IMG/VR virus record: IMGVR_UViG_3300030329_004160
Coordinates: 18,101-52,475 of that record
DNA from: a virus
Direction: 5' to 3' (one strand)
DNA length: 34,375 nucleotides
The notes under the pieces: model-generated
Seen by the model: only the letters and a program-made list of their open reading frames with translations
What the model was told of the DNA's origin: nothing
Databases searched by the model: none
In this document: piece by piece, positions 4,801 through 33,618 of the stretch
Numbering within the stretch: position 1 is the first letter of the stretch
Layout: each line of letters starts with the position of its first letter
Made by a program: the position numbers and the translations under genes

Positions 4801-7800
4801 AGATGCTGATAATAGTTGGGTAGGAAATGGCGTATGGTGGGTTTCATCTATTACAAATACTCAAGTGTTTGTTTGTAAAAGAAATACTGATTTAGATGAT
4901 GTACCAGGAAATGCAGACCCTATTAGAGTATCTTTTAGACCTTTTTATTACTATGGCATGAGAAGAGGTAATAACTTTATATATAGAATAACTCCAGAAG
5001 CAAGAGTTATTGCTACTTCTGGCGCAAGTTCTACAACACAATATAAAGGATTAATTGAAAAAAGTCAGGAATTAAACTTTCCTGTTGAATCAATATGCTG
5101 TTCTTATAGTAAAGATGGTAGTGGTACTGATGGTGGTCATATATATGCATTATCTTCTTTTGGAGATAAAATATATAGATTAAATGTAAATATTAAGTAT
5201 GATGAATGGACTTCAACACAACCATCTAATACAGAAATTATTAGTATGGAATATAAATCTTTTAAATGGAGCAACTTAAGAACAGATGGAGATACAGGAG
5301 CAGGTGCTTCAGATTATGTATTTGATTCTAAAGCATTTCAAAGTACTCCAACGATTAAAATATCTGGAATGCCTTCTGATATTATAGAGACAAAAGGACC
5401 TCTTTCTACTTTTGATTGGACTCAAGCTACTAATTCGCATGCTGATGTAGACCCTAATAAATTTGACACAAGATTATGGCTTCAGAGTTTTCCTGTTGGA
5501 GAGCAAGATACATTCACTGATGGTGATAGATTCTTGTTTTGTGCTAAATCTGAATATGCTACAGGAGATAATACGGTTTATTTTGCTGATAGAACTCCTC
5601 CTACTGTAGCTAGATATGGAGCTCGTCATCGATATACTAGAGATGGAGATAAGTGGGGAGCTGGACCGTTTGCTAGGTCAGATGATGCAAGCTATGCTGA
5701 TAAATCAGGAAATGATAACATGGAACCTGGATATGTTGCGTCAAGAGCTCTATTTTGGACAGGATGGACAGAGACCAAAAGTCATAATAAAATAGGTCAT
5801 TGGAAGCCTTTAGGTTCTTTTGATTTTGAAACAATGAAAGCAGCTACATATCAAGGGAGCGAAAAATATAGTGCAACTACTTATTCTAAACCATATGTTA
5901 ATTGGGGTTATAATGTAGGCTGGGATGGAAATGGTAGTAAAAAAACAGCTATAAAAGTAGCTAGATACGGTTTATTTCAAATAGCTGATAATGATGGTGA
6001 TGGTCTATTAGATGGTACAGGTGTAATAGTTCCTAATACAGCTAATACAGAAGTTAAATATGGAACTCTAGGAAGAAGACTCTCCTCTCATGCTGTAGGA
6101 TTAATAGGTTCATCTGAATTAAATTGGATTAGACACGCTGGAAGAATGCTGGGGAATGGCAATAGTAATGTAGAGCATTATACGGCTAATAAAGATACAG
6201 GAGAGGATTTGAATTTTAAAGGAGCGTGCATGCATGATTTCCCTGAATATATGGATGCTAGCAAAGTCGTATTTGTTTGTACAGATATGCATTTTGGAGA
6301 TTATCCTCAGAAATCTTTTTATAGTGTTGCAGTTGCAGAATCAGCAACTGATTTTGGAGCAGGAGACCATAAATTTTATACAAAATGCACAACAACTGCT
6401 AATAATTATTTGCAACCTGGAGATTTGGTTAGGTTTGACGGTACGGGTAGTTGGGATGGTTGGGGTAATTCTTATCATGTTGTAGCATTGGATACTACTA
6501 ATCCTAAAACAGTTTTTTATGTTGCAGAATTAACAGAAAGTCCAGGAACAGCTATTGGAACTAATAATTCAGGAGATGTTGTTTTAGGAGGATTTAGCTA
6601 TAATAGGTCTAGCTCTGGACATGTATATAAAGGACCTAGACCAGAAACGCACGGAGATGATATTCCTTATCATTTTGCTTTAAATGACACTAATAAGCAA
6701 GATGGAACTATATTTAATTCTCATGGAGGTTTTAGCAGATTATGGTATACTGAACAAGATAATTATGGGCCAAGATGGGGAGCCCCTTCTTTTCCTTTTG
6801 AAACAGACCAAAGCTATAGTACTATAAGTTATCGAAAAAATAATCCTCATATTTTCCCAGCTTTTCAAAATTTAGTAGAACAATTAAATTGGCAATCTGG
6901 TTTTATGATAAGACCTTTTGATATGGATAATGCAGGCTTTTCTAGTTTACTTATTGCAGAAGGATTATCTGTTGATATGCCAAGTTATCCTGATGCTATA
7001 TATCATAATACTAATGTACTTAAAAGCGCAACAGGAGATACTGGTAATCAATTAGCTTCTAGACTTTTTATAGCAAGTCCAGGTGAAGTAGATGAAGCGG
7101 GGGAATTGCAAGATTCTAAAATATTTGTCTGTGAATGGAGTTTTTTATATCCTAATCAATCTTCTTTTATAGATGCTGAATGTATGTCTCATGATAGAGA
7201 TACCACATCAGAAAATAATGGAGATGCAAGTGAAGTTTATTTTTCAGGAACTATTGATGCTTATGATTCTGCTGCTGATTCAGCCGTTGGAAAATGGGAT
7301 GCCACTATACATCCTGTGTTAGACTTAGATTTTGATGATATTACATGTGCACCTTCAGATACATTATCACAAGGTCAAGATATAAATCCTGCAACCATTT
7401 ATGGTATTATTGATACTGTTTCATGGGCTTCTCCTTCAGGTGGTTGGAACAATACTACTGGAAGTAATAAAGTTCATACAGAAGTAAGTGCAACTTCAAC
7501 TTCAGGGAGTGGTACAGGTGCAACATTTAGATTTAGTGTTAACTCTTCAGATACAACTTCTATTGGTAAATATTATAGAAATAGAGGTTATGGTTATGCA
7601 GTTAATGATACTATAATTTATACTGACCCTGATAGTTCAGAAACAATGCAGGCTACAGTTACAAGTGTTGTAAATGATAGTTGGTATAGACGAAAAAATG
7701 TTTTAGCTGGACTTTATATTACCGTAGTAGACAAAGATACTGGACTTACTCAGACAAGAAAGATTGTAGGAAGTTATTCACCTCAATTCGGTGCATCGCC

Positions 7801-12829: not shown

Positions 12830-15800
12830 GTGGCTAACGGACAAGAACAAAATTTTCAACCTCAAATAGATGCTCAACAGACTCGTCAATACATTAAGAT
12901 GTATGGAGAGAGTCCTCATAGATTTAAACCTCAAGACTTAGAAGTTTTAAGATTACATGCTCAATATCATAATGTCCCTTTTTATGAAGGAGATTTTGGT
13001 ATTGTGGATTCAATTAAACAATTTGCTGGTGGTCTTATAGAAGGCTTTACTACTTTCAATGTAATAGATGAACCTCCTGATAATGAATACGAAGCTATAA
13101 TAAGAAGTATAGGTCATTTAGCTGGATTTGCTCCTGGCTTTGCAGCTGCTCCTATAAGAGGTTTAGGTGCTTTGACTAAATCTAGAACTTTATTAAGAAG
13201 TGCTAGAGCAATAGGTGGCGTTAAATCCGTTCCTCTTCTTGGTGCTGACTTTCTTACTAAAAGAGCTAAGAAAATAGCAAAACCAATCTTAAAAAATCTT
13301 CCTAATTCCAGATTTAAAGCAATGTCTGTTGCTTCTAAATTCTTACTTGGTAATAAAGCTAAGCATATTATGGAAGGAGCATTTCACTTAGGTGCTGCTA
13401 GTAGTATATCTACTTGGCAAGAAGGTGTTGATGGTATGATGCATAGTTTCTTTGGAGGTGCTGTAGCTGGTGGAGCTTTTGCTGGTATGGGTAATCTTAT
13501 TAATGTAGGTAATAAAAAAGCAAATGTATTTGCAAGAGGACTTGCAGGTAGTTTGTTCCAAGGTCTTCATTCTACAGCAAGAGGAGCAACTACTCCAGAA
13601 CAAATATATGAATACTTGCTAGGTGCTTATTTTGGAGGTGTTGCGAAGCCTTGGTTTAAAGTTAAAGCTAACAAAAACATTCAAAAAATGAATGAACAAG
13701 CTAAAAAAGACCCTAAAATGGAAATACAAAGAGACCCTGAATTACTTGAAGGATTTGCAGAGCAACCTGAAATAGTTCAAAAACATACAAAAGAATTAGC
13801 CAAAGAAATATTTGGCGATAGTGTAGAAAATGCTGGTATTGCTCATATGCTTATGGAAAGACTTGGCATTACAGATAAAATACCTGAAGAAAAGCTTACT
13901 ACTACTGGATATGAAATGCTTTCTAAGATTAAAAAGAAAATGAAGAAAAAAGATGGACCTGCTAAAATAATATCTATAGCTTTAGGAACAGGTGAAAAAG
14001 GGTTAACAGAGCAATTTTCTAAAGAATTAGAAAGAGCTGGTATCCCTGTTATTAATTATAAACCAGGCAAATCTAAACGAAGTCGAATAGGTGAAGATGT
14101 AGAATTAACTGAAAAAGAATTATTTGAACAGCAAGAAGCTATGAATACAGCTAATAAAACCCTTAGACATAGCTTGAAGAATATCGATGAATCGACTATG
14201 AGGCTTATTTTAAGAAGTATCTATCAATCTAATAAAGGGGATGCTGTCTTTGGAATAGGAGAAATAGAAAGGTCAAATAAAGATACTAAATTAAATGGAA
14301 GAACTATCAAAGATAAAAATGTCAAATGGGGTGTTCAATCTGCAGTAGATAAAAAGAAACCTATATACATATTTGATACTAAAAGTAACGTTTGGCATAC
14401 GTTTAATTATGACCCTAAAATTAAAAGATTTGAACCTATTAAAGAAGTACCAACCTTAACAAAGAAACCTGTTATATTAGCAGGTGGAAAGCCCAATCCT
14501 AATACTAAAAAAGCTATTAAAGATATTATAAAACAATCTATGGGGAAAGTTGTCAAGCAAACACCTCCTGGAAAAGATGAAAAGCGTACTTCTATAGCAG
14601 ATATGCCAGAGAGACATCCTGAGACATGGAATCAGTTATGGGATATTGCTAAAAGGAAAAAAGATTTATCTGAAAAGTTAGAGAAGGCAAATACTTCTAA
14701 AGAAATAGATAGATTGACCAAGGAATATGATGAATTGGTTAGCGAAGAAAGCTTGTTATTAGAATTAAGACCTACTGAATATATTGATATGGAAACAGGT
14801 GTTCTTATGAATGATATTGATACTGGTGGAAAATTAGATATACCAGTATTAATGAAAAAATCAGAGTATTTTGTAAGAACTCATTTGCCTCATTTATGGG
14901 TTAAGGAGGATAAACCTAGAGAATCTATGTTAAAGAGTGCTAAAATGGTTGAAGAAATTATATCTAAATATGAAGATTCGGGAAGTAAAGAAATCAAATC
15001 TGAGCAAGCCGTAAAAGATATAGAAACAGAATTAAATACAACATTAAAAGATACTGCTAAAGGAGAGATTCGTAGATGGATTAGAGAATTAAACTTGTCT
15101 AAACCTGTATCATTTATAAGAGTAGATTCTAAAGGCAATGTAAGTTTAACAGACCCTAATAGACCTAGAACATTATCAGGTAAGAATAAACTTGAAAAAG
15201 AACCTGTAAAAGAAATAGAAGTTGTTTATGAAGAGCAAGGTGGTAAATATAAAAAGGGAGCAAAAAGCGCTTATATTGTTTTAGATGCAGTATCAATTAG
15301 AGATGACAGAGGTATAATGATTGATGTACCTATTGATAAATTGGCTAAATATATTCAGTTTAATATTAAAACTAAAGGCAAAAGAGTATCAAAAAATAGT
15401 TCAGAATTAAAAGCTAGAGCTATTGTAGCAAAAGTTATAAAAACTATGGATAAAAAACACAATATGTATCCTGTTGGTGGAGTTGGAGATAAGTCTAGAA
15501 TTATATTTACAAAAGTACATCCTAAGTCTCGTGGCTCTAATATGCAAATTTTGAGAGATTTGGTTAAAATTAGGCGAGAATTAAGAAAAATAGACCCCAA
15601 CCATACTCAAATGTTTAAAAAGGCTAAAAAAGATGCATTTATAAATTATGGAATTGATGAAAAAACTTTCAATAAACTATTTCATTCTAATGTTATGTAT
15701 GATTTGTCTTTAAATGGATTTGATTTGACTCAAATAGATAAGATAATGGGTAAAGGATTTATAGGTAATCCTATTGCATATAATAAAAGAGCTCAAATAT

Positions 15801-18800
15801 GGTATACTCCATCTTTAGCTGCTGATAAAGTATTTATAAAAGACAAAATTAAAGATTTAGATAATGGTAATTTTGTTTACTCTCTTATAGGAGACCCTAG
15901 CAAACCCAAAGGTAAAACAAGTTTAGAAGCTTTAAATATAGAATTACCTGAACATGTAGATGGTGCTATATTAGTAAGAGATGATGTTGTAGATGTGTTA
16001 AACTTAGATGCAGGACATCCTATGTCTGGTCAGAATAAATCGTTTATTATAGACAAACATGGTGAATTAGGAACTATGCTTGGCAAATATATGATACATA
16101 AGGTAGGCTCTGAAGGTACTCAGCAAATGAAAGACCAAGGTGTTCATATGCTTATCATGACGTCTGCTGCTAAACAAACAGGATTAAGAGAAATAGGTGA
16201 TTACAATGTATCTGATAAAGGATTTGAATTAAAAGCTCCTAAGTATACTATGGACCCTGAATCTATTAAGTATAGTGGTTCTACAATACAAACACCTCAT
16301 ATGATGAAAAATCAAGTATGGGTAAAGCAATTATTTACAAACCTCCAACAATTTGGTCATAAAAAAATAGACAAGTCAATAATTAATAACATTGAAGAAG
16401 AGATTTTAGACAAAAGTTTTAAAGGTACAGATAAAGCTAACAAATTATTAGCTGATTATTTAACTGATTTTAATGAAAAGAAAATACCAGAGCTTTTAAA
16501 TTCATTAGAAGAAATAAGTAGTCAAGACTTAATATCTGCCTTAAAAACTCCTGGAGCAGAACGTTTTGCTGAAGGAGCTTTGCAAAGAATGTTAAAAGTA
16601 GTTGAGGAAAATATAGAATCTGATTATCAATCTGGATATATTTCATTAGCTGAAAAACAGTCTATGGTTAATGATTTAGTTGATTTTATATCGCCTGTAG
16701 ATAGGTTGATTAAAAATGCTGCTATTGTTGGAGAAGAAGCATCTTCAAAAGGAAAAATAGGTTTTTCTGCTTATCATCATAAACATATTAGAGATTATAA
16801 AAATGCAGTATTGCATAATTACTTTGTCAAATCGGTGACAAAACCAAAAGTATCTAACTCTATGGTAGCTAGAATGAGGCCTTATGATAAGTGGATGCAA
16901 AGAAAATTTGGAGATTTAAATACTAGAGATGATATATTTTACTTAGATGAAGCTTATAGAGCTGTTGAAATAGAAACATCATTTAAAGAAGCTCATTTAA
17001 AGAAGACTACTCTTGGAGTATTGTGGGATATGTATAGTAATAATAAGTTTAGCGGTCAAAGGAAAAAAGAAGTAGAAGAAATATTTGAAGCTGTAGTATT
17101 GCGTGTTCCTATGGATTCTATATCTGGTGCTCATAAACTTAAATTTAAAGGATTTACGGGCGTAGATGGGCATGGTATTATGATGCATTCAAGAAGTATG
17201 AGAGCATTAGGTGGTGCTGACCTTGATGGTGATGAAGCATTTGTCTATTTTGGAGGAAGAAGTCCTGATGGCAAAGGTGGAGGTATGAAAAAATCTTGGA
17301 AAGATGCTATTCATGCTCAAAAAGAAGAATTTTATAAAGGGGAAGGCTCTAAAAGAGATGTTGGAGATAATAAAAGAGAACTTATGAATCATCCAGAAGG
17401 AAAATATAAAGGAAAAACTTTTGCAGATGTATTAACAATATCTGCTGAAGGTGATAATCCTTTAAAGACAAGCAAAACTTTATACTATTCTCCATCAGCT
17501 AGATTAGAAGCTTCTCAAGGAGCTGTAGATGGAAGAAATAGGTTAGGACCTGCTGTTAATAATGGACAAATAATGAAATCTGTTTACAATTCTTTAATGG
17601 ATACTCCTGGAAAGATAGATGTTTTTGAAATTGATTTTTATAATAAAAAAACAAAGAAAAATGAAAAGCTTGTTATAGAAATAACTCCTAGAGAAGGTTC
17701 TGATTGGAATCGGTATCAAAGAGAAATGACAAGAGCTCAAATTGCATTTGCTTCTGACCCATTAGATGAAGCAGGTTTAGTTGAATCTGGAAAATTCTTT
17801 ACTTTATTGCATGATGGTTACTTTAAAACAAAGATATTAAATAATAAAGGAAAACAAGTTAAGAGAGAATTATCTCCTTTTCATCTTAAAAATGGATTAA
17901 TTGGTAAATTTATTGATATGAATTCAGCTTTTTTTGGTCGAAATTGGGATGCAAATAGAAGATATACTGCTGAAGAAGTTTCTGAGTTAAGTTCTGGTGT
18001 TTTAGATTTATTGCCTCAGCAAGTTAATACTATTTTGCCTAAAATGGTTAGAAAGCTTCATGGATTAGATTGGAGCGATAATATATTAAAAAGAATAAAT
18101 GAAAAAAGAGTAGAAGATTTATTCTTTGAAATGGAAGATATATCTGAATCATTTAAATGGTTGCAAGATATTATGGGGAGGGAGTCATTTAGAGTTCCTT
18201 ATAATAAATATGTACAAAATATTATTACATATGACTTGCAAGATATAACTAAACGAGAACAGTTTGCTTTTGATAATGCTTTATTTAGTAAAGCTATCAA
18301 AGGTACTACTTGGGAAAAAATAATAAAAAATCCTAAATATGCTGAATATTTAGCGAATGTTGACAAAAAATTTGAAATTCTCACACGTTTAACTCGTCAA
18401 GCTGAAGATTTTATATTAAATGATTTCACAGATATGGCAACGTTGTTAAATATGAAAAGAATTTTAGGGCAACATAAAATAAATGGCAAAAGAATAGGTT
18501 CTATATTTAGACAAGCTGAATTATTTAAAGCTCGTAGCTATTTAAATAAAAGAGAAAGAGATATATTAGATTTAGAAGTTTACCAAGGTACAAGCAAAGA
18601 AAAGGAAGCTCAAGAAGCTGTAGCTTTGGCTTCTAGGTATCGTGATTATTTACTTGGAAAAATAGATAAATATGAAAAAGATTTAGGTAAAAAAGGAGCT
18701 GAACGTTCTGCAACATTAGACCAAGCTATGCTTGATGTAAAGATAAAAGAATATAGGTCTAAACTCAAATCTACTGGAGAAAAAGATTTATTTGACCAAT

Positions 18801-21800
18801 TTATGATTGGTAGCTTAAATAGAGGTGATTTAGCTCACGTTCAAAAATTAATTGATAAAATACCTCAAAAAAAATGGAGTCCTATTATGTCTGATTTAGT
18901 TAATAAATTAGTCAAAGAAGGCTCTAGAACATCTTTAAGTAGATTAGCTATTAATTCTGAATCAATACCAGATGCTTCTATTAGAAATCATTTAAAAGCT
19001 TTAAATGATGTAATGGGTAAATCATGGGAGCGTCCTAGCAATAAAGATATAGAATCATCTATTAATAAAACTAGTAAAGCTGCTGATAAATCTATGGTTG
19101 AATTAGCGGATGGAACTAAAGTAAATCAAGAGCAAATTGAAGTTATGGAAATGGAAAGTTTGGTTAATGATGTTTTGGGTAATCAAAGAGGATATATTGG
19201 TATTAAAAAAGCAGATTTAAGACGAGCAGATAAAGAATTAATAACTGAATTAGCACAAAGATTGCAAAAATATAATAATAAATTAGGTAATAATCTTAAT
19301 GAAGTTTTAAGAGGTTTGATGGAAACAGCTACTGGTAGAGGTAAGGATTTAAATGCTTTCAATAGACAAGACTTTCAAATTGTTAATAATTTATTAAGAG
19401 AATATGAATCAGGTACTATGTTTCAAAGATTTTGGAGAGATTCTAGCCCAGATTTAAAAAAGAGATATACTATGTTATTTCCTGAAACTGTAGCTAGAGA
19501 ACAAATGAAGTATGATATACTTTGGCTTAAAAAAGAAGGTTATTATATAGATAAAAGCGGCAAACCCAAAAAAGGAATAGTTGCTAAACCTACTCATTAT
19601 GTAGAGGTTTTGTCTAATTGGATAAGTAAAACTAATAATTTAGCTACAGGGGAAGCTGAAAGAATGATAGTTGAGAATGGAGAAATATTCTTAAATTTAA
19701 ATTCTTTAAGAGAAGGTGATGCTCTTTTTAAAATTGCTAATGCTCAAAGAGAAGGTAAGTTTGCAGATATTATCGCAAATGATAAAACGAGACCTTTTTC
19801 TACTAGAAAGAATGATGCTAATACATATAGAATACATCAAAGAAATACTGAAAAAGAGTTTGAATGGGATAAATTAAAAGACAAAGAATTTACAATAACT
19901 AACGATAATGGTGAAAAAATAACAGCTACAGGTTTTGAAATAGTTAATGGCTCTCAACCTAAAAATTTAAAGGGTGTAAAAGATAAAATAACTGAACAAT
20001 TTAGAAATTTCAAAGTTCTTATTAATGGCACTCAGCGTCCAGAAGATACTAAATATTGGGCAGGAGATTGGTATGATAGATATCAAACGCAACCTAGAAT
20101 GAATTGGAAAAAGTTTATTGCAGATATGGAAACTGCTTATAATAAAGGTGAAAAACCTGGAATGGAATTAGGAATTGATGGAATGAGGCATATAGCTCGT
20201 TCTATGATGGTAGATTTAGCTCATAAAAGCAGAAAGAAAGAATTTCAGGATATTATAATTGATAAAACTGGACATATAGATTCTGATATGTATTTTCCTC
20301 ATATGTTCTTTTCAACAAAAGATGCTACTAAAGCTCTTCGTAGAGCTATTAAATCTATAAAAGAAGACCCTAATCTTTCTGATAAAATAGATAAGAAAAC
20401 AGGTATGTCTGAAAGACAAAAAGAACTTAATAATGTTGCTTTTAGACATAAAGTATTAACAGGTGATTGGGAATTTCAGGATATGCAAGATTGGGATAGA
20501 GTTGACCAATTAGATTATAAATCTACCTTAGAAAGTGTTGCTAAGAAAAAAAGAGAAAAAGGTGAACAAGTGCAATGGGTAACTAGTAATAAAAAGATGG
20601 GCTCTATGTTTTCAAGAAAAGGACATATTCCTGGCTGGGCAAATGATATAACTGTAATGAATGCTTATATAAGAAATGTAACAGGTGCTTATTATAGACA
20701 AGTTAATCAAATTATGTCAAGAAATGTTATGAATGAAGCTTGGAAAGGTCAAGTTAAGAAATTTGGACCAGAAGTTGCTGCTAGATGGCAAAATTGGTAT
20801 AAATTATATGTTCAAGGAGCTATGGGCAATCCCGATGTTATTCCAGAAGATATAATGATTGACTCTGGAATGAAATTAAAAGGAACTCCTTTTGCTTGGT
20901 GGGCTGACAATAAAGTATTGAAAAGAATAAATGGTATAAAAGAGTCTTTAGGTTTAGGTAAAGGAGATTTGCCAAAAGAATTAAGAGAATTTACTTATAA
21001 TGATATTCGTCTATGGTCTAATCTTGAGGCAAAGTTTGAATTAGCTTCTCTTTTAGCGCATCCAAAATCAGCTGTTAATAATATATTTGGTGGTTCCATG
21101 CATACTATAGAATCTGTTGGATTTAAGGCATGGAGAAATGCTAGAGATATAAGTTATTTAAGAAAAATTAATCCTGAATGGAAAACTAAAGAAGATGTTA
21201 TGAGGTTTGTTATTGAAAAAGGTGTGTTACCTGAATTCCTTGTACATGAATTAGGACTTGGAGCAAAAGTAAATAGAACCAAAATAACATCATTTGTCGG
21301 TGATTTGACAAATAAATTAATTGGGAATAAAGAAGTTAATAAAAGCGATATACTAACTTTAGGAAAAAAACATGGATTGACTGATGCTATTGTTGATAAA
21401 GCAGCTATGTTTATGACTATTCCTGAAAGAGCTTTAAGAAGAGATGCTTTTATGGCTCATTATATAAGAGCTTGGGAAAGATTTGGAGGTGCTATTAAAG
21501 ACCCTAATCATCCATTTTTAATTGAAATGGGATTAAAAGGTGTTAAAGCTACACAATTTTTATATGATGCCCCTAATCGACCTTTATTTGCAAGAACTGC
21601 TCTTGGTAAAATAATGACAAGATTTCAATTATGGTCTTGGAATTCTGTAAAATTTAGAAATGATGTGAGAAGAGAAGCTAGAATACATGGTTATAAACCA
21701 GGTACAGAAGCTTATGAAAGATTTAAAAGAACAATGCAAATGGATTTATTTGTATTAGCTTTAGGTAATATATTTATGTATAGCTTATTTGAACAAGCTT

Positions 21801-22150
21801 TACCAGCTCCATGGAATTGGTTTCAAGATACATCAGAATGGTTGTTTGGCGATGAAGAAGCTAGAGATAAAGCTTTTTTTGGCAATTTACCTGGAGCTAT
21901 AGCTCCTTTACAAATAATAACTCCTCCTATTTCAAGATTTCCTATAACAGGTTTGTCTCAATGGATAAGAAATGATTATGATAAATTTACCGACTATACT
22001 ATGTATACTTTATTACCATTTGGAAGAATAGTTAGAGATGTAGTTCATCCAGAAAAAGGACTAATTAATAATCCTTTAATGGTTATGGAAAAAACTATGG
22101 GACTTCCTTTATTGCAATTAGCAAAATATGCTAAGGATAGAGATGAGTAA
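12830..22150 (+). CDS. Giant (3106-residue) virion protein with RNA polymerase-type active site; candidate virion RNA polymerase
   Basis: Starts at GTG 12830 with no clear ribosome site. Residues about 60-230 contain Gly/Ala-rich hydrophobic stretches. Residues about 375-565 look like a SLOG-type Rossmann domain: G-D-A-V-F-G-I-G (470-477), then K-K-P-I-Y-I-F-D (509-516) with a following W, then A-G-G-K-P-N. At 1044-1115 come V-D-G-A-I-L-V, lysines K1086 and K1091, and T-S-A-A-K (K1115), fitting the first double-psi barrel. At about 1425-1475, an R-V-P segment, G-H-G-I-M-M-H and G-G-A-D-L-D-G-D (DLDGD 1464-1468) match the second barrel, whose aspartates hold the catalytic magnesium in RNA polymerase beta-prime, QDE-1 and crAss-like virion polymerases. 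The rest is helical, with a final segment rich in W and P near residue 2990. Activity is not proven. Confidence 0.75.
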   Translation: MANGQEQNFQPQIDAQQTRQYIKMYGESPHRFKPQDLEVLRLHAQYHNVPFYEGDFGIVDSIKQFAGGLIEGFTTFNVIDEPPDNEYEAIIRSIGHLAGFAPGFAAAPIRGLGALTKSRTLLRSARAIGGVKSVPLLGADFLTKRAKKIAKPILKNLPNSRFKAMSVASKFLLGNKAKHIMEGAFHLGAASSISTWQEGVDGMMHSFFGGAVAGGAFAGMGNLINVGNKKANVFARGLAGSLFQGLHSTARGATTPEQIYEYLLGAYFGGVAKPWFKVKANKNIQKMNEQAKKDPKMEIQRDPELLEGFAEQPEIVQKHTKELAKEIFGDSVENAGIAHMLMERLGITDKIPEEKLTTTGYEMLSKIKKKMKKKDGPAKIISIALGTGEKGLTEQFSKELERAGIPVINYKPGKSKRSRIGEDVELTEKELFEQQEAMNTANKTLRHSLKNIDESTMRLILRSIYQSNKGDAVFGIGEIERSNKDTKLNGRTIKDKNVKWGVQSAVDKKKPIYIFDTKSNVWHTFNYDPKIKRFEPIKEVPTLTKKPVILAGGKPNPNTKKAIKDIIKQSMGKVVKQTPPGKDEKRTSIADMPERHPETWNQLWDIAKRKKDLSEKLEKANTSKEIDRLTKEYDELVSEESLLLELRPTEYIDMETGVLMNDIDTGGKLDIPVLMKKSEYFVRTHLPHLWVKEDKPRESMLKSAKMVEEIISKYEDSGSKEIKSEQAVKDIETELNTTLKDTAKGEIRRWIRELNLSKPVSFIRVDSKGNVSLTDPNRPRTLSGKNKLEKEPVKEIEVVYEEQGGKYKKGAKSAYIVLDAVSIRDDRGIMIDVPIDKLAKYIQFNIKTKGKRVSKNSSELKARAIVAKVIKTMDKKHNMYPVGGVGDKSRIIFTKVHPKSRGSNMQILRDLVKIRRELRKIDPNHTQMFKKAKKDAFINYGIDEKTFNKLFHSNVMYDLSLNGFDLTQIDKIMGKGFIGNPIAYNKRAQIWYTPSLAADKVFIKDKIKDLDNGNFVYSLIGDPSKPKGKTSLEALNIELPEHVDGAILVRDDVVDVLNLDAGHPMSGQNKSFIIDKHGELGTMLGKYMIHKVGSEGTQQMKDQGVHMLIMTSAAKQTGLREIGDYNVSDKGFELKAPKYTMDPESIKYSGSTIQTPHMMKNQVWVKQLFTNLQQFGHKKIDKSIINNIEEEILDKSFKGTDKANKLLADYLTDFNEKKIPELLNSLEEISSQDLISALKTPGAERFAEGALQRMLKVVEENIESDYQSGYISLAEKQSMVNDLVDFISPVDRLIKNAAIVGEEASSKGKIGFSAYHHKHIRDYKNAVLHNYFVKSVTKPKVSNSMVARMRPYDKWMQRKFGDLNTRDDIFYLDEAYRAVEIETSFKEAHLKKTTLGVLWDMYSNNKFSGQRKKEVEEIFEAVVLRVPMDSISGAHKLKFKGFTGVDGHGIMMHSRSMRALGGADLDGDEAFVYFGGRSPDGKGGGMKKSWKDAIHAQKEEFYKGEGSKRDVGDNKRELMNHPEGKYKGKTFADVLTISAEGDNPLKTSKTLYYSPSARLEASQGAVDGRNRLGPAVNNGQIMKSVYNSLMDTPGKIDVFEIDFYNKKTKKNEKLVIEITPREGSDWNRYQREMTRAQIAFASDPLDEAGLVESGKFFTLLHDGYFKTKILNNKGKQVKRELSPFHLKNGLIGKFIDMNSAFFGRNWDANRRYTAEEVSELSSGVLDLLPQQVNTILPKMVRKLHGLDWSDNILKRINEKRVEDLFFEMEDISESFKWLQDIMGRESFRVPYNKYVQNIITYDLQDITKREQFAFDNALFSKAIKGTTWEKIIKNPKYAEYLANVDKKFEILTRLTRQAEDFILNDFTDMATLLNMKRILGQHKINGKRIGSIFRQAELFKARSYLNKRERDILDLEVYQGTSKEKEAQEAVALASRYRDYLLGKIDKYEKDLGKKGAERSATLDQAMLDVKIKEYRSKLKSTGEKDLFDQFMIGSLNRGDLAHVQKLIDKIPQKKWSPIMSDLVNKLVKEGSRTSLSRLAINSESIPDASIRNHLKALNDVMGKSWERPSNKDIESSINKTSKAADKSMVELADGTKVNQEQIEVMEMESLVNDVLGNQRGYIGIKKADLRRADKELITELAQRLQKYNNKLGNNLNEVLRGLMETATGRGKDLNAFNRQDFQIVNNLLREYESGTMFQRFWRDSSPDLKKRYTMLFPETVAREQMKYDILWLKKEGYYIDKSGKPKKGIVAKPTHYVEVLSNWISKTNNLATGEAERMIVENGEIFLNLNSLREGDALFKIANAQREGKFADIIANDKTRPFSTRKNDANTYRIHQRNTEKEFEWDKLKDKEFTITNDNGEKITATGFEIVNGSQPKNLKGVKDKITEQFRNFKVLINGTQRPEDTKYWAGDWYDRYQTQPRMNWKKFIADMETAYNKGEKPGMELGIDGMRHIARSMMVDLAHKSRKKEFQDIIIDKTGHIDSDMYFPHMFFSTKDATKALRRAIKSIKEDPNLSDKIDKKTGMSERQKELNNVAFRHKVLTGDWEFQDMQDWDRVDQLDYKSTLESVAKKKREKGEQVQWVTSNKKMGSMFSRKGHIPGWANDITVMNAYIRNVTGAYYRQVNQIMSRNVMNEAWKGQVKKFGPEVAARWQNWYKLYVQGAMGNPDVIPEDIMIDSGMKLKGTPFAWWADNKVLKRINGIKESLGLGKGDLPKELREFTYNDIRLWSNLEAKFELASLLAHPKSAVNNIFGGSMHTIESVGFKAWRNARDISYLRKINPEWKTKEDVMRFVIEKGVLPEFLVHELGLGAKVNRTKITSFVGDLTNKLIGNKEVNKSDILTLGKKHGLTDAIVDKAAMFMTIPERALRRDAFMAHYIRAWERFGGAIKDPNHPFLIEMGLKGVKATQFLYDAPNRPLFARTALGKIMTRFQLWSWNSVKFRNDVRREARIHGYKPGTEAYERFKRTMQMDLFVLALGNIFMYSLFEQALPAPWNWFQDTSEWLFGDEEARDKAFFGNLPGAIAPLQIITPPISRFPITGLSQWIRNDYDKFTDYTMYTLLPFGRIVRDVVHPEKGLINNPLMVMEKTMGLPLLQLAKYAKDRDE

Positions 22151-26844: not shown

Positions 26845-27031
26845 AACCTTTTTCTCCTTCTAGTTCTATTTTACTATCATAAGTTAAAATAAATTGAAAC
26901 TGAAATCTCCATATTCCAAATAAAATACCTCTTACATAAGATTCTGGATGAACAGCCCCTATTGTAAATAATTTAAATAACTTTATTCCTGTAAAATTGC
27001 TTAATATTAATATTTGTAATAACCATCCCAT
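26837..27031 (-). CDS. 64-residue hydrophobic protein, unknown
   Basis: ATG overlaps the stop of the primase-helicase gene (TAATG). The protein is largely hydrophobic and aromatic (W-L-L-Q-I-L-I-L-S, then G-I-L-F-G-I-W-R-F-Q-F-Q-F-I-L), with a charged end (E-L-E-G-E-K-G). It could insert in a membrane as one or two short helices. No family recognised; support comes from the tight coupling. Confidence 0.45.
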   Translation of the reverse strand: MGWLLQILILSNFTGIKLFKLFTIGAVHPESYVRGILFGIWRFQFQFILTYDSKIELEGEKGYA

Positions 27032-28791
27032 TATAGCTTCCTCCTCATTCTAAAAGTTGGAGTCCATTCAATTTCGCAATCAAATAATTCTCCATCTGTG
27101 TTTTTAAATAACCTGACTTCTCTATCAGGTTTGTCTGACTGTCCATTTAAACCTATAACTTTTCTGGATGCGTTTTCTATTGCTCCACTTCCTTTTCCAG
27201 CATATAAGTCAAGAACTTCGTTTCTGCTATACTCTCTGCTTACTTGGGATATCTGTATTATTATAATGTCCATATTTACAGCTAAATTTGATAATCCATG
27301 ACTGATTTGTTTTATCTTTTCATGCTCTCCTCCATATGTTTTAGAGGTATCTATCAAATCTATATAATCTATAACTACTAATGACGGTTGTAATTCTCTT
27401 ACTTTCTCTGTTATTCCCTGTAATGTAGGGCTTATTGTTTGTACGTTTAAGTGAGCTAACTCGTCTTTATGGTCTTCGTAAATATCATCATAATTCTCGT
27501 TTATATCTTCTTTAGTGCATCCTGACACTATTTGCATATGTCTTCTATGAACATACCAAGAAGATAGCTCTAAACTTAGAAATAATGTAGGTATTTGCCA
27601 ATCTGTATTTATTTCATTTTTAACAAAATCTACCCCTAACACCATATTTTGGACAAATGTTGTTTTATTTGACCCTGTAGGCCCAAATACAGTGACTAAT
27701 TCACCTGGATATATAATTGATTCCTTTTTAACACCGAGCATTTTACCTAAATTAATAGTTTTCCCTGTGAAATCAGTTGTCAATCTATCTCTAAGCTCTC
27801 TTTGCATTTGTTCTGCTGTTTTAACATCTATAAAGTAATCTTTATGTTGAAAATGTATACATTGAGTTTTACAATGGTCTTTCATTACTGTATCTTGACA
27901 ACCATACCTGTAATTTCTATTATATACATTCTCTACCATTTCATTAAGACTTGTTTCATTCATGCTTTTATTATTCCAATGAAGCATAGACACTTTACAA
28001 TAATGACTTGGAATACCATGTCTTTTAAAATGGCTTATTATTCTCATAGCCGTTATATGTCTATTACCTTCATTTGGTCCTTTATTTAACATTGATTGAA
28101 CGCAAGGTATTAATGTTGTTGGCTCTGATACTTTGTTAAATACTTTAATATCAGGTACTTCTTGGACTACTTTATTCTCTAGCTCCCCATCTCCTATTAA
28201 CTCATGATATTTAAAGTCTAATCGCTGAGTTTTAGCTAATTCAAATATTTCTTTAGGCGTTAAATTCATTACTTCATCTTTAGTCAAAGGTATCTTATAA
28301 AGATTTGTCTTTTGATTAACAGTATGCTGAATTCTATATATACCTGTTCTCATATAAATACTTAAATCTACTTCAGGAAACAAGCTTCTCATTGTTTGCT
28401 TTACTATATAAGGTAAATCGGGACTTTCTTTAAAATTGAATAAATCTCCTGATAACATTAAGTGATATCCAGAACCAGAGAAGAAAGGTTGGAAGCTCCC
28501 ACAACCAATCTCTCCCTCCTCTAATTCCATTAAAATGCTTCTCAAGATATCAAGAGTTTTTTCATCAGAATTATCTTTTTTATCTATATCTATAGGTATC
28601 TTATCTATAGACCTAACTCCAAAATAATTCTTTAAAGAACCTGTTTTATCAACAAATTCTTTAGCTGTTTGCTCATAGAGGTACACTGACCTGTATATAG
28701 GTTCGTCAGTAGATATATATTTGACTAAGTGTGTGTGAGGAATCAATATACCTCTATTTGCTGGAGTTCCTCTTGCTATCTCTACATACAT
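27031..28791 (-). CDS. Archaeo-eukaryotic-type primase fused to DnaB-like helicase
   Basis: A 586-residue replication protein. The N-terminal half has primase-polymerase (AEP) motifs: I-D-I-D (D68, D70), S-G-S-G-Y-H (105-110) and downstream P-E-V-D...R-T-G-I-Y-R. A middle region has C230, C299, C307 and C311, which could hold an iron-sulphur cluster or zinc as in primase C-terminal domains. From about 340 there is a RecA-fold helicase: Walker A G-P-T-G-S-N-K-T-T (370-378), Walker B L-V-V-I-D-Y-I-D-L-I-D (471-481), Q-I-S-Q-V-S-R (513-519) and G-S-G-A-I-E-N-A (534-541). It should unwind DNA and make primers at the fork. Start and stop both overlap their neighbours as TAATG. Confidence 0.88.
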   Translation of the reverse strand: MYVEIARGTPANRGILIPHTHLVKYISTDEPIYRSVYLYEQTAKEFVDKTGSLKNYFGVRSIDKIPIDIDKKDNSDEKTLDILRSILMELEEGEIGCGSFQPFFSGSGYHLMLSGDLFNFKESPDLPYIVKQTMRSLFPEVDLSIYMRTGIYRIQHTVNQKTNLYKIPLTKDEVMNLTPKEIFELAKTQRLDFKYHELIGDGELENKVVQEVPDIKVFNKVSEPTTLIPCVQSMLNKGPNEGNRHITAMRIISHFKRHGIPSHYCKVSMLHWNNKSMNETSLNEMVENVYNRNYRYGCQDTVMKDHCKTQCIHFQHKDYFIDVKTAEQMQRELRDRLTTDFTGKTINLGKMLGVKKESIIYPGELVTVFGPTGSNKTTFVQNMVLGVDFVKNEINTDWQIPTLFLSLELSSWYVHRRHMQIVSGCTKEDINENYDDIYEDHKDELAHLNVQTISPTLQGITEKVRELQPSLVVIDYIDLIDTSKTYGGEHEKIKQISHGLSNLAVNMDIIIIQISQVSREYSRNEVLDLYAGKGSGAIENASRKVIGLNGQSDKPDREVRLFKNTDGELFDCEIEWTPTFRMRRKL

Positions 28792-29390
28792 TATAGGTTA
28801 GACAATCCACTTCCTTCTAATGAGTTTCCACTTGATTGTGTTGGCTCATCAGAGGCTTCTTTGATTATCCCTTTACCTTTTAACCATTTAACATCATCCG
28901 CTAATTTATTCTTATTTGCTTCGCTATTCTCATATATTTTATGATAAACTCTTGTCCAAGCTTTATCACCTATTTTCTTTGGCTTTTCTTTGTATACATA
29001 TGCAATATAATCCATATTTTCTTTATCTGGCATAGGATTAACCCATTGCTCGTTTAGATATGTGTCTATTTCAGCAATTTCATTACCCTCTGCATCTTCC
29101 CAGCCACCTTTTACATTTAATCCACATTTACAACCTATTGCATCAAAGAACGTGTACATTCTTTTAAGAACGCTTCCACCAGTTATATCTCCACTAGCAT
29201 CTTTATCAAAAGAACCTGCTAATTTAATATTTCTAGTATATTCACTACCTTTTTGTTGCACTGTAACATCAAGAAAAACATCAGCCCAATCAAACTCTTC
29301 GCTTCTGTCTTTAAAGTTTAGTATATTTATTTCACATACTCCAAAGAAATTACTTCCTCCGCTTCCCATTGTTGGTCTAAAAATAGCCAT
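28791..29390 (-). CDS. Putative single-stranded DNA-binding protein
   Basis: A 199-residue protein, beta-rich in the first 130 residues (F-F-G-V-C-E-I-N-I-L, D-W-A-D-V-F-L-D-V-T-V, T-R-N-I-K-L-A-G-S-F), then a helical segment and a Ser/Gly-rich tail ending S-G-L-S-N-L. It lies between a Sak4-type ATPase and the primase-helicase with TAATG junctions on both sides. In many phages a single-strand DNA-binding protein of this size occupies exactly that place and works with Sak4. No clear OB-fold signature can be proved by eye, and the usual acidic end is weak, so the function is inferred mainly from context. Confidence 0.55.
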   Translation of the reverse strand: MAIFRPTMGSGGSNFFGVCEINILNFKDRSEEFDWADVFLDVTVQQKGSEYTRNIKLAGSFDKDASGDITGGSVLKRMYTFFDAIGCKCGLNVKGGWEDAEGNEIAEIDTYLNEQWVNPMPDKENMDYIAYVYKEKPKKIGDKAWTRVYHKIYENSEANKNKLADDVKWLKGKGIIKEASDEPTQSSGNSLEGSGLSNL

Positions 29391-30064
29391 TATTTCTTCT
29401 CCTTCTTATATATATTTTTCCAATTAAGTTCCATCTCTTTGCCTCTCAGATGAGGACTTCTACTACCTGCTTCTAATGCATCATTTGACTTGAAAGAAAC
29501 CATTAAACTATCAGTTTCTTCATCTCTATATACATAGCCTATAGCATCGCAATCAGCCATTAACATATTCTTTAATTTGCCTGTTAAATCTAAACTTTCA
29601 GGTTCTACTAAAGCTTTGCTTTCTACTACTGCTCTTGCCCATTTTCTATGTCCTATAATGATAGTATAGTCAAATAAAGAACTTATAGCATCTACTGTAT
29701 TAAGGACTTTTTCTCTAACTAAACCAAAACCCTTACCATAAGCTAAATCAGCTATATTTGCTACATTTTCGTCTTTACAGACTGCTTTCTCTGCCCATTC
29801 TGCTATTTTATCTATTGTATCTATAGCTGCATAGCTATATTCATGCCCTTGTTGAGCTTCTTTTAATAGAGTTATTAACTCTTCTCTACTATTTACTGAT
29901 TCCACATAGCCTTCTATCATATTAGCTCCTTGCTCTGTATCAATTATCAAACAATCTTTTAATTGACTAAGAGCTGTAGTTTTACCTACTTTAGGTGCTC
30001 CATATAGTAAAAGTTTTTTAGGATTTTCAGAAATAGCTTTTCTTTTGACTTTTTTAAGTGCCAT
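29390..30064 (-). CDS. Sak4-like RecA-fold recombination ATPase
   Basis: A 224-residue protein with Walker A G-A-P-K-V-G-K-T-T (22-30), an I-D-T-E-Q-G segment (41-46) and Walker B Y-A-A-I-D-T-I-D (78-85). This is the AAA_24/Sak4 family of short RecA-like phage proteins that anneal or load recombinase on single-stranded DNA. The size is typical. Good ribosome site (AGGAG) upstream of ATG 30064. Its 5' side is the structured element 30094-30204, so this gene may open a new processed mRNA segment. Downstream it is coupled to the putative single-strand-binding gene. Confidence 0.85.
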   Translation of the reverse strand: MALKKVKRKAISENPKKLLLYGAPKVGKTTALSQLKDCLIIDTEQGANMIEGYVESVNSREELITLLKEAQQGHEYSYAAIDTIDKIAEWAEKAVCKDENVANIADLAYGKGFGLVREKVLNTVDAISSLFDYTIIIGHRKWARAVVESKALVEPESLDLTGKLKNMLMADCDAIGYVYRDEETDSLMVSFKSNDALEAGSRSPHLRGKEMELNWKNIYKKEKK

Positions 30065-30220: not shown

Positions 30221-30889
30221 TTAATATTTAAAACAACTATTTTTTTGTAATGTCATAGTAGGAAAGTTAAATGACAAAGCGACTTCGTATGGTTGTTTTG
30301 TCACAACCTTCCGAATGGTATTTGCTATAAAACTTCCAGCCATGTTACTACAATAACTAGTTGCTTTCATATTGCAAGGTTCTTCACTACCAGACTCGTC
30401 TGAATACCAAGTCTTTTCATACTTTGCTAAGGAAGGAGCAATAAAAGTATATTGTTGATAGTGTTCTGCTCCCATTCTACCATCTATTAGTAGAAAAGGT
30501 TTAGCATATTTATATTTAGTTAAAGCTTTAACAGCTTGCATTCTAACTTCCATACTGTCAAAACCTAATATAATTATGTCATTCTCATTCATATATATGT
30601 AATCTTTAAACATATTCTCATCACAGATTATTTCTGCTGAATCATTAATCTCTTTAAGATGTCCTTTTAACATATCTACTTTCAAATGACCAATATCATA
30701 TATTCTATATTGAGATACACCTATATTAGGTGATTCTACTTTATCCATATCATATAATGCGAATTTATCTGCACCCATTCTGGCTAGTTGAATGGCTGCG
30801 GAACTACCTATAGCCCCGCAACCAAGTATATGAAAGTTATACTCGCTAAGATTGTCAACTAACCCTTTGCTACGAGTATTAATTTCCAT
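30221..30889 (-). CDS. E1-like (ThiF family) adenylating enzyme of a ubiquitin-like system
   Basis: A 222-residue protein. ATG 30889 is chosen because GGAGGAGG lies just upstream; an in-frame ATG at 30922 has none. ThiF/E1 features in order: nucleotide loop G-C-G-A-I-G-S (23-29), D47-M-D49-K-V, S-P-N-I-x-V-S-Q, D-I-G-H-L-K (ending K70), F-D-S-M-E-V-R (110-116), I-D-G-R-M-G, and candidate catalytic cysteine C172 in E-P-C-N-M-K-A-T. It should adenylate the C-terminal glycine of the ubiquitin-like protein (33406-33618) and pass it on through a thioester. It overlaps the JAB gene by 11 bases. It is a short E1 without extra domains, as in PRTRC-type systems. Confidence 0.85.
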   Translation of the reverse strand: MEINTRSKGLVDNLSEYNFHILGCGAIGSSAAIQLARMGADKFALYDMDKVESPNIGVSQYRIYDIGHLKVDMLKGHLKEINDSAEIICDENMFKDYIYMNENDIIILGFDSMEVRMQAVKALTKYKYAKPFLLIDGRMGAEHYQQYTFIAPSLAKYEKTWYSDESGSEEPCNMKATSYCSNMAGSFIANTIRKVVTKQPYEVALSFNFPTMTLQKNSCFKY

Positions 30890-31808
30890 ACCAACCTCCT
30901 CCAAAACTTTCATTCCAACCATTATATACTATTTTATCTCTTAGAACTTCATCTTCCCATTCAAACATATCTCCAGGAAAAATAGTCATTAACTCATTCA
31001 TAACTGTTTGTCTACTTCCTTTAATATGTTTTACTTTAAATGGTAATTTGTTATTTTTACAGATTTTATTTATTTCTTTAATATTTCTTTTGTAATCTGC
31101 AAAACTCATGCTACCATCAACTAAACCATCCATACAATGTTCCAATTTATTTTCTGCTTGTTTGTAATAGTTTTCCATAACCAAGTCATTTTCTTTTTGA
31201 AACAAAGTATCTTGTTTATTATATCTAGTATATCCGCTATATATAATACTTTTATTACCATGATGATGAATAACATTTCTTTCACTACAAAGCTCTTTAT
31301 ATTGCTTTTCCATATCTTTAGTAATATTAATCTTAGGTTTACTTCTTTCTATTGTAAGATTTGTATCATAATGTTTATTAATAGGTATACCATTAGCTTT
31401 CCAAACACTTACTCTAAAAACATATTCTTCCTTAAGATTGATAACTAATGCCAAAGAATAACTATCATTTTCCCAAGCTTCTATCTCTTTAATATCAGTT
31501 CCTGACCAAAATGCACCCATAGTATGATGTGAATGCCACCAAACAAACTTCATATTAGTATCTTTATACTTCATAGCTTGTTTCATTGTATAATCTGTGA
31601 CTGCTTGTCCATCAAGTTCTGTATTGCTACCTGTATTTTCTTGCTTGAGTATTTCTACATCACTTAATTTAAAACGACCATCTTCTTGTGGTACAGCTGT
31701 CATTAATCCTGATATTTCATTTTTATCTTTATCATAAGCTATTGTAGCCCATGCTTGAAGTTTATACCAATCTTTCTCTGGTATATAGAACATATTTTCT
31801 AATTCCAT
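30879..31808 (-). CDS. JAMM/JAB-domain metalloprotease, deubiquitinase-like
   Basis: A 309-residue protein. ATG 31808 is used because AAGGAG lies six bases upstream and it overlaps the E2 stop (TAATG). The JAMM signature is complete: E31 (in N-E-I-S-G), then H92-S-H94-x7-S102-x-x-D105, in W-W-H-S-H-H-T-M-G-A-F-W-S-G-T-D. This zinc site cleaves isopeptide or peptide bonds after a ubiquitin-like Gly-Gly. Residues about 150-300 are a Lys-rich helical extension unlike a bare JAB domain, perhaps for substrate or partner binding. With E1, E2 and Ubl next to it, it probably removes the modifier from targets; the Ubl already ends in GG, so a maturation role is not needed. Confidence 0.87.
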   Translation of the reverse strand: MELENMFYIPEKDWYKLQAWATIAYDKDKNEISGLMTAVPQEDGRFKLSDVEILKQENTGSNTELDGQAVTDYTMKQAMKYKDTNMKFVWWHSHHTMGAFWSGTDIKEIEAWENDSYSLALVINLKEEYVFRVSVWKANGIPINKHYDTNLTIERSKPKINITKDMEKQYKELCSERNVIHHHGNKSIIYSGYTRYNKQDTLFQKENDLVMENYYKQAENKLEHCMDGLVDGSMSFADYKRNIKEINKICKNNKLPFKVKHIKGSRQTVMNELMTIFPGDMFEWEDEVLRDKIVYNGWNESFGGGWYGN

Positions 31809-33280
31809 TACTCGCTCCTTCCTGGACTTGTCGCCCATTTCATCATTTTATCTTTTATATCTTTTTCAGCTTCTACTTCTTCTCCATAATATTTAATAGA
31901 TTGCAAGCCATACTCTATATAATCATTAGTAAGACCTCTTTTAAATAATATTAACCAAATACTATGATATAAATGCTCCATATTCATTTCATTTGATACA
32001 TCATAATCATAATCATATAAAGGATGAAGACCTGTTATTTCTTCAAACTTTGTTTTAGCATCATAAAAACTCAAAGATTTATAATATTCTATTAAAGCAC
32101 CAAAATATGATTCCATTTGATGTCTATACTCTGAATCTTGATATTTATCAAGTATATAAACAGCATCTAGATTAACTTTACATGAATTCATAGCACTACA
32201 ATTTACTTCTTCACATGCTTTTAATAATGATAATGAATTATTAATATCTTTATCAACATTATATTTAGTATGCATAGAACGTGAACAACTATTAATATAT
32301 TCTTGACTTCCTAATGCTTTATATTCTTTGCTAAAACTATCTGGCATTCCTATATGGAAGAATTGAATTTTATTATATGGATGACTATATTGATTATGAT
32401 AATATTGTGCCCAACTTAATAAATGATATTGCAAAGATGTAAAATCATTCTTTTTAAAGCTATTGTAAATATCATCTTGGTAACTACTTAAACATACTGC
32501 ACCATAATGATTATAATTACTTCGTGCTGAAATATAAGGATGCTTTAAATGGCTACCTAAGGATGAATGATAACAGCCACTCATACCAAATCCTTTTGAT
32601 GTGCCACCTATATGTTCTCTTAAGTTTTTAGATGCAATTATTCTTATAAAACTATCTTTTTCAGATTCTATTCTTTGAATAAGCTTTGCATCTTTCTTTC
32701 CATCATAAACAAGTATGTTTATATCTCTTAGGTGAATTTCATATAATAACTGTGTTTGTCTTATTTCTTTTTGTACCGTGATATATGGTTTAATTTCCAC
32801 TTTACCATTTGATAAATTATAAGCTAAATCACATTGTGTATTAATTGTATCAACTAATTTAATAGTTTCTTCTTTAAAATCATCAATATTTACATTTCTT
32901 GGATATCCATCTTGCTTTAAATAAAATTTGTCAATTTCTAGCTGTCTAGCTTGACGAATAATATAATTTAAATAATTAGATTCATCTTTAGTTCTTGCCA
33001 ATTTATGATGAATACCTTTTGATTTTTTATGAACCTTTAGTCTTTTAAGTAAAAACTCATCTATTTTATTATATGTTCCTGGTCTCCAATTCCATTTATC
33101 TGTAACATCAATAGAATCAATACCATAATGTTCTAAAACATTATTAAAACTTTCTAATTCTTGGAAAAACTTATTTTGTGGACCGACTGCTATAGCATTT
33201 GCCATATCTTGCGTTAAATCTCTTAATACATCTATATTTGTTACTTCTTTTAAACTACTTCCCCAGCTTACTGTTTCCAT
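31808..33280 (-). CDS. E2-like (UBC superfamily) conjugating protein
   Basis: A 490-residue protein between Ubl and JAB. At 247-265 it has H-P-Y-I, a short loop, then Y-G-A-V-C-L-S: the HP...G-x-[IV]-C-L pattern of E2 enzymes, with C263 as candidate thioester cysteine. Beta strands before it (about 160-210, E-I-K-P-Y-I-T-V through I-L-V-Y-D-G-K) and a helical segment after it (D-F-T-S-L-Q-Y-H-L-L-S-W-A-Q-Y-Y) fit the E2-like fold of bacterial Prok-E2 families. H247-C263 spacing is about 7 residues longer than in eukaryotic E2s. Residues 1-150 and 320-490 are unassigned and may choose targets. AGGAG precedes ATG 33280. Remote by sequence; context raises the confidence. Confidence 0.65.
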   Translation of the reverse strand: METVSWGSSLKEVTNIDVLRDLTQDMANAIAVGPQNKFFQELESFNNVLEHYGIDSIDVTDKWNWRPGTYNKIDEFLLKRLKVHKKSKGIHHKLARTKDESNYLNYIIRQARQLEIDKFYLKQDGYPRNVNIDDFKEETIKLVDTINTQCDLAYNLSNGKVEIKPYITVQKEIRQTQLLYEIHLRDINILVYDGKKDAKLIQRIESEKDSFIRIIASKNLREHIGGTSKGFGMSGCYHSSLGSHLKHPYISARSNYNHYGAVCLSSYQDDIYNSFKKNDFTSLQYHLLSWAQYYHNQYSHPYNKIQFFHIGMPDSFSKEYKALGSQEYINSCSRSMHTKYNVDKDINNSLSLLKACEEVNCSAMNSCKVNLDAVYILDKYQDSEYRHQMESYFGALIEYYKSLSFYDAKTKFEEITGLHPLYDYDYDVSNEMNMEHLYHSIWLILFKRGLTNDYIEYGLQSIKYYGEEVEAEKDIKDKMMKWATSPGRSE

Positions 33281-33301
33281 ATTCTTCTTTCTCCTGTTTT
33301 A

Positions 33302-33397
33302 TTAAATGAGAGAGGTTACACAAACAGAGTTACACTGTTCCACCTCATACCTGCCGCTAAGCAACCTCGAAGGTTCCCCCTCACCTCTCTCATTTAA
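33302..33397 (-). ncRNA. Structured intergenic element B (15-base perfect closing stem)
   Basis: Bases 33302-33316 are the exact reverse complement of 33383-33397, 15 pairs closing 96 bases. Inside are two perfect 5-base hairpins: AACAG/CTGTT (33323-33327/33335-33339) and AACCT/AGGTT (33363-33367/33371-33375). It fills the gap between the Ubl stop and the E2 ribosome site. There is no U-run, so it is not an ordinary terminator. It could be a processing or partial-termination site that lets Ubl be made in excess over the enzymes. Confidence 0.65.
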
Positions 33398-33405
33398 ATG
33401 TTTAA

Positions 33406-33618
33406 TTACCCACCAACTTTGTTATTGCTAGTGAATGCTACAACTGCATCATCTGCAATTGGAAAGTCATTTAATCTAACTTCTCCATTTACATTAACTT
33501 GTGCGTCTGCAGGTATATCTAACTCATTTCTGAGCTCTCCTACATTAGTTGAGCTAACATCACGCCTATTAAATGCTCCATTATCTAATAAGCTTATACT
33601 TCTACTATCATTTGCCAT
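33406..33618 (-). CDS. Ubiquitin-like (MoaD/ThiS-type beta-grasp) modifier ending in Gly-Gly
   Basis: A 70-residue protein with AGGAGG seven bases before ATG 33618. Reading order fits a beta-grasp: strand S-I-S-L-L, loop, helix N-V-G-E-L-R-N-E-L, then V-N-V-N-G-E-V-R, L-N-D-F-P-I-A-D-D-A-V-V-A-F and a flexible end N-N-K-V-G-G at the true C-terminus (stop directly after the two glycines). V-N-G-E followed by D-D-x-V-x-F is the MoaD/ThiS pattern. A bare GG tail means it is ready for adenylation. With E1, E2 and JAB following, it is most likely the conjugated protein. A sulphur carrier is the alternative; the E2-like protein argues against it. Confidence 0.82.
   Translation of the reverse strand: MANDSRSISLLDNGAFNRRDVSSTNVGELRNELDIPADAQVNVNGEVRLNDFPIADDAVVAFTSNNKVGG

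Follow-up and report, generated by a model that had tools for sequence, protein, structure and literature searches.

The bacterial ubiquitin-like (Ubl) systems known so far are chiefly anti-phage defences or plasmid-borne operons whose function is unknown. Iyer et al. predicted operons of E1, E2, JAB and Ubl genes in bacteria in 2006, the phage examples being a Ubl-JAB pair in tail genes (PMC1779556). In Bil, BilA has two Ubl domains, BilB carries a Cys-Glu-His-His motif and BilD has two adenylation domains (PMC11354881). We describe a cassette in a stretch of viral DNA of 34,375 nucleotides (hereafter the window), taken from a virus record of 52,475 bases (IMGVR_UViG_3300030329_004160, positions 18,101 to 52,475). 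We consider it highly probable that a 490-residue protein of this cassette is the Ubl-conjugating, E2-like enzyme of a ubiquitin-like cascade that the phage encodes in full. A full cascade beside phage replication genes reverses the usual picture, in that phages may tag proteins in the cells they infect.

The window co-encodes a Ubl, an E1, an E2-like protein and a JAB protease, the combination that characterizes prokaryotic E1-E2-JAB-Ubl operons (PMC1779556). Gene order, the homology or fold class of the four proteins, conservation at catalytic positions and the tie to replication genes were all computed here. The minus strand encodes, in this order, a 70-aa Ubl, the E2-like protein, JAB, a ThiF-type E1, a Sak4-like protein, a 199-aa protein and a primase/DnaB-like helicase, with the following features:

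33406 to 33618, minus strand: Ubl modifier, 70 aa, beta-grasp, ending in KVGG (AF2 model and conservation)
33296 to 33405, minus strand: structured RNA between the Ubl and E2-like genes, with a 12-bp covarying closing stem (z -4.2, covariation)
31808 to 33280, minus strand: E2-like protein, 490 aa (ORF, motif, model, conservation and profile comparison)
32888 to 33280, minus strand: its residues 1-131, N-terminal helical region (conservation and model)
32333 to 32887, minus strand: its residues 132-316, UBC-like core (structural alignment; model range ~137-311)
32492 to 32542, minus strand: its residues 247-263, HP...C with expanded loop (conservation in 90 homologues)
31811 to 32332, minus strand: its residues 317-490, fast-evolving C-terminal helical region (conservation and identity)
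30879 to 31838, minus strand: JAB/JAMM metalloprotease with E41, H102-x-H104, S112 and D115 (Prok-JAB E 1.6e-4; RPN11 in PDB)
30221 to 30922, minus strand: E1-like ThiF-fold adenylating enzyme, 233 aa, with G34-x-G36-x-x-G39, D58, K81 and D122 (ThiF E 4e-20)
29390 to 30064, minus strand: Sak4-like ssDNA annealing ATPase (phrog_124 E 7e-32)
28791 to 29390, minus strand: conserved 199-aa protein, syntenic in relatives, with no match among Pfam and PHROGs families
27031 to 28791, minus strand: primase/DnaB-like helicase (phrog_19 E 9.5e-29, DnaB_C E 1e-15)

The AF2 model of the Ubl (pLDDT 83.4) has the order E-E-H-E-E-E and is closest to the structure of ThiS (Z 8.3), and the C-terminal GG is invariant among relatives. 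Several relatives continue beyond it, by two or three residues in three loci and by 11 in another, while in two (L085, 3093-3512; L087, 692-1111) the extension reaches about 65 residues and likely marks a precursor or fusion that the JAMM protease would cleave; such tails provide a use for that protease. Every alignment row covering its metal site retains the residues of that site. The likely JAB start is M11, which overlaps the stop of the E2-like gene by 1 base, and this overlap suggests that the two genes are translationally coupled. The E1-like protein matches UBA5, MccB and Cap2 in the PDB, and its candidate catalytic cysteine, C183, is kept in 65 of 65 sequences. Against the NCBIfam ThiF models it scores 78 bits, below the equivalog cut-off of 159 for PRK08644. 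Its ATP-site segment (residues 67-72; window 30707-30724) has an invariant N-x-GVSQY, where the residue preceding the glutamine is usually an arginine in MoeB/E1 proteins.

The closing stem of the structured RNA shows two-sided changes at 8 of its 12 pairs, with a covariation score of 0.340 compared with at most 0.135 in slid controls. The element recurs in the Ubl-E2 gap of 13 relatives; in others the two genes lie 1-2 bases apart, leaving no room for it. It matched no Rfam family, and it may help to set the amount of Ubl relative to the enzymes. Elsewhere in the window, two giant plus-strand ORFs (1811-10228 and 12830-22150; 2805 and 3106 aa) had no PHROG match. A search of the whole 52,475-base record with PF03237 found no terminase, which may reflect a fragmentary record or a divergent terminase.

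Scans of viral contigs located the E2-like gene at 15 loci and the E1 gene at 325 or more, the latter perhaps including generic ThiF relatives. Where enough sequence is available, the four genes occur together and in the same order in nearly all loci. Among relatives anchored on the helicase, the E1 is present in 37 of 37 with at least 2.2 kb upstream, which indicates that the cassette is core to the lineage of the window. With 6.8 kb available, profiles recognised all four genes in 11 of 14; in the remaining three, JAB and E1 are accompanied by a protein of 699-712 aa that fills the E2 slot, and in one case this protein weakly matches the sister family described below. The JAB signature HSH[HN]TM-x-[AV]F[FW]SGTD, searched as a degenerate DNA pattern, gave at least 120 matches in viral contigs and only two contigs among approximately 85,000 bacterial and archaeal species; the pattern may miss some cellular JABs.

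The E2-like ORF runs from 33280 to 31808 and has a good ribosome-binding site at its start, and the opposite, plus strand has no long ORF; the original prediction, made from the letters of the window, had given the interval without its minus-strand orientation. Direct search found relatives in 15 other viral contigs and an iterated profile raised this to about 109 sequences, a number that puts the existence of the family far beyond chance. ORF and model agree with the prediction that an E2-like core sits within a far larger protein with big flanks on both sides. The limits set from the AlphaFold model place the core at about 132-316, with flanks of approximately 131 (N-terminal) and 174 (C-terminal) residues; the prediction gave 150 and ~170.

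Conservation was counted over 90 full-length homologues. The segment H247-P248...C263 stands as HPYISARSNYNHYGAVC; all 90 homologues keep C263, W290 and P301, and 88 keep P248. An invariant cysteine in the catalytic position after an HP-type segment is a property of the UBC-fold E2-like superfamily, and C263 is the predicted thioester cysteine. Loss of this cysteine among homologues had been named as evidence against an E2 reading, and every homologue keeps it. The histidine fared differently: position 247 is His in 51 homologues, Phe in 33, Tyr in five and Ser in one, so that the His half of the HP motif, which the prediction had treated as a motif residue, is not a conserved feature. The HPN motif of classical, eukaryotic-type E2s is absent; the segment reads HPY or FPY, with Tyr or Phe at the Asn position. 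In E2s of the HPNINSNGSIC type, the histidine and the cysteine are 10 residues apart. In the window protein they are 16 apart; the loop is therefore expanded as predicted, by six residues instead of seven. The distance from P248 to C263, 15 here, is mostly 13-39 and up to 70 among the homologues, making the loop hypervariable. Across the family, loop and flanks vary widely about one fixed cysteine.

The AF2 model of the whole E2-like protein has a mean pLDDT of 86.9 from a 42-sequence alignment. When the 827 top Foldseek chains were realigned with VIA-align, rows 1-17 were all UBC E2s (Z 6.1-5.3, 112-139 residues aligned, rmsd 3.4-4.2), in alignments that mostly span residues 137-311 of the model; the best has Z 6.1, rmsd 3.5 and 130 aligned residues. 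The fold predicted for the region expected to be E2-like (160-320) thus resembles that of UBC E2s, though Z values of 5-6 are modest and below the level at which a UBC assignment would be safe on its own. Foldseek alone, run with the model against the PDB, returned no E2 and only chance matches such as Kir channels. Structural rows for residues 32-127 contained only long helical hairpins (Skp, SMC), an uninformative type of match. In BFVD, the model matched A0A1B0WLX5 (420 aa, probability 1.00), equal in length to ALN97165 of Flavobacterium phage FpV4. The protein and its profile matched no E2 family in Pfam, NCBIfam, PADLOC, PHROGs or the PDB, and tblastn of the protein against cultured phages found no match.

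Because Z is below 8, the fold assignment leans also on a second phage family, which was found through the JAB signature and occupies the E2 slot. Its members carry HPH[VI]S...PCLG, or in a wider form HPH...C(L/M/F)G, with 9-10 residues from H to C, a spacing near that of classical E2s. This sister family fills the E2 slot in three contigs whose helicase is related (48-59% identical). Comparison of the window-family profile with the sister profile scored 42.7 (P 1.7e-4), and 46.7 (P 4.2e-5) in the reverse direction; unrelated families used as decoys reached at most 27.1, and shuffled or reversed window-family profiles at most 14.1. The alignment pairs HPYIS with HPHIS and VCL with PCLG, placing P248 opposite P and C263 opposite C. 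This link supports the view that the window protein is an E2-like enzyme whose HP-to-Cys loop grew longer, and together with the model it points to the UBC fold of the E2-like superfamily.

Pairwise identity averages 0.26 over residues 1-130, 0.20 over 131-245, 0.32 over 260-316 and 0.16 over 317-470. The N-terminal region is common to the family, and most members keep GPQ (33-35), N46, W65 and PG (67-68). Since it is about as conserved as the core, its role is suggested to be constant, either structural or in partner binding. The C-terminal flank, 78-274 residues long in relatives, changes fastest, which would fit target selection without being proof of it. That the flanks select targets, in an E3-like role, is a guess, more plausible for the variable C-terminal region than for the N-terminal one. 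The same region contains a cluster of cysteines, C356, C361 and C367 (window 32180-32215), kept in 72, 89 and 75 of the 90 homologues, respectively, a possible metal site or second reactive cysteine.

We infer thioester chemistry, conjugation, reversibility and a role in genome replication or host takeover. In the proposed pathway, the JAMM protease would trim any residues past the GG of the Ubl. The E1-like protein would use ATP to adenylate the C-terminal glycine and would hand the Ubl, probably via C183, to the E2-like protein at C263. The E2-like protein would move it onto a target amine inside the infected cell, with no separate E3 gene; the protease could also take the tag off again. Our broader reading is tentative: a largely virus-held, complete Ubl conjugation system may be a core part of the replication module in several phage lineages (ocean phages, Crassvirales Steigviridae and Fipvunavirus), in which an E2-like enzyme with its own fast-evolving target-selecting region would serve as E2 and E3 in one.

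A somewhat doubtful alternative is that, as with Cap2, the E2-like protein attaches its cargo to one dedicated partner to activate it, instead of to many substrates; a nearby replication protein could be this partner. The lack of a separate E3 gene and the fixed tie to the primase, Sak4 and the 199-aa protein would suit such a scheme, for which Cap2 of type II CBASS is a precedent (PMC10097602), and the E1 profile matches both Cap2 and PADLOC E1-E2. Conversely, the window encodes a free Ubl with GG, which CBASS does not have, and the fast-changing C-terminal flank suggests partners that change.

Bacterial Ubl systems act against phages (PMC11354881, PMC10097602) and the JAMM protease is intact, so the protease and Ubl pathway might serve as counter-defence, reversing host immunity based on Ubls (Bil, CBASS, Bub) or competing with it; this is unlikely, given that a protease alone would suffice, that encoding an entire conjugating cascade together with a Ubl carries a high cost, and that presence in 37 of 37 relatives looks core rather than like an arms race. 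We regard as very improbable a ThiS/ThiF-type sulfur-carrier pathway for thiolation, in keeping with the annotation 'thiamine biosynthesis protein' in phages: the Ubl fold is closest to ThiS and the E1 closest to ThiF in NCBIfam, albeit under its cut-off, yet an E2-like protein with an invariant cysteine and a JAMM protease always adjoin, and no ThiG, MoaE, rhodanese or tRNA thiolase is found among the annotated neighbours. Retention of the E2-like fold as a non-catalytic scaffold, for which the non-conserved active-site His/Asn could be cited, seems about as improbable, as C263 is invariant across sequences just 15-40% identical.

The E1 search led to crAss001, DAC15, Kolpuevirus and FpV4, and cassettes of the same order were found in the cultured phages crAss001 (gp79-gp76), DAC15 (DAC15_91-88) and FpV4 (ALN97166-97163). 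In each, a gene for a Ubl-bearing protein is followed by genes for an HSH...C-containing E2-like protein, a JAB with HSH[HN]TM..FFSGTD and a ThiF E1, as in the window, and the cassettes adjoin primase and uracil-DNA glycosylase (UDG) genes, the window set likewise lying beside replication genes. Their genes are mostly annotated as hypothetical, 'metalloprotease' or 'thiamine biosynthesis'. In contrast to the window protein, the E2-like protein of the crAss type and FpV4 has no long N-terminal region, and the Ubl domain bears a long C-terminal tail; profile scores of the crAss-type protein against the window family (22-25) are barely above decoys and not significant. Because crAss001, DAC15 and Fpv phages are cultured, and tags would leave distinctive trypsin remnants, the proposal is directly testable.

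The PRTRC plasmid system (C-F-B-A-ThiF; 'prokaryotic E2 family D') likewise has the order Ubl...E2-like, JAB, E1, with a JAB motif and E1 of related type, but with one extra gene between Ubl and E2-like protein. PRTRC-B, of about 240 aa, has a profile that scores no higher than decoys against the window family; printed alignments with PRTRC-B and the crAss E2-like protein set the conserved cysteines opposite each other, at scores that are not significant. The window set lacks PRTRC ParB, E and F genes, and of the PRTRC models (A, B, C, E, F, ParB, ThiF) run against the window, PRTRC_A and PRTRC_ThiF fell far below cut-off and B and C had no match. Residues 137-311 share their fold class with eukaryotic UBC E2s (UBE2S, UBE2E1, Ubc12, UFC1), from which the window protein differs in having no HPN, a longer loop, two large flanks and no sequence match.

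No description of such phage cassettes was found in the open literature, nor anything relevant on crAss and ubiquitin or ThiF; novelty is provisional, subscription papers and preprints being outside the search. The kind of operon is known, while a virus-held, replication-linked version whose E2-like protein is enlarged in this way seems not to have been described in the open literature searched. Type II CBASS Cap2/Cap3 has the same E1/E2/JAB logic without a RING E3, but Cap2 is a fused E1-E2 and CBASS has no free Ubl, whereas the window genes are separate and have no CD-NTase among their neighbours. Bil (BilABCD) shares the four genes, Ubl, E2, JAMM protease and E1; the window has a single 70-aa Ubl and one 233-aa adenylation domain, and its E2-like protein lacks the Bil-type E/H/H at +6/+8/+13 of C263. 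Compared with the phage Ubl-JAB pair of Iyer et al. (2006), the window cassette is different, and complete.
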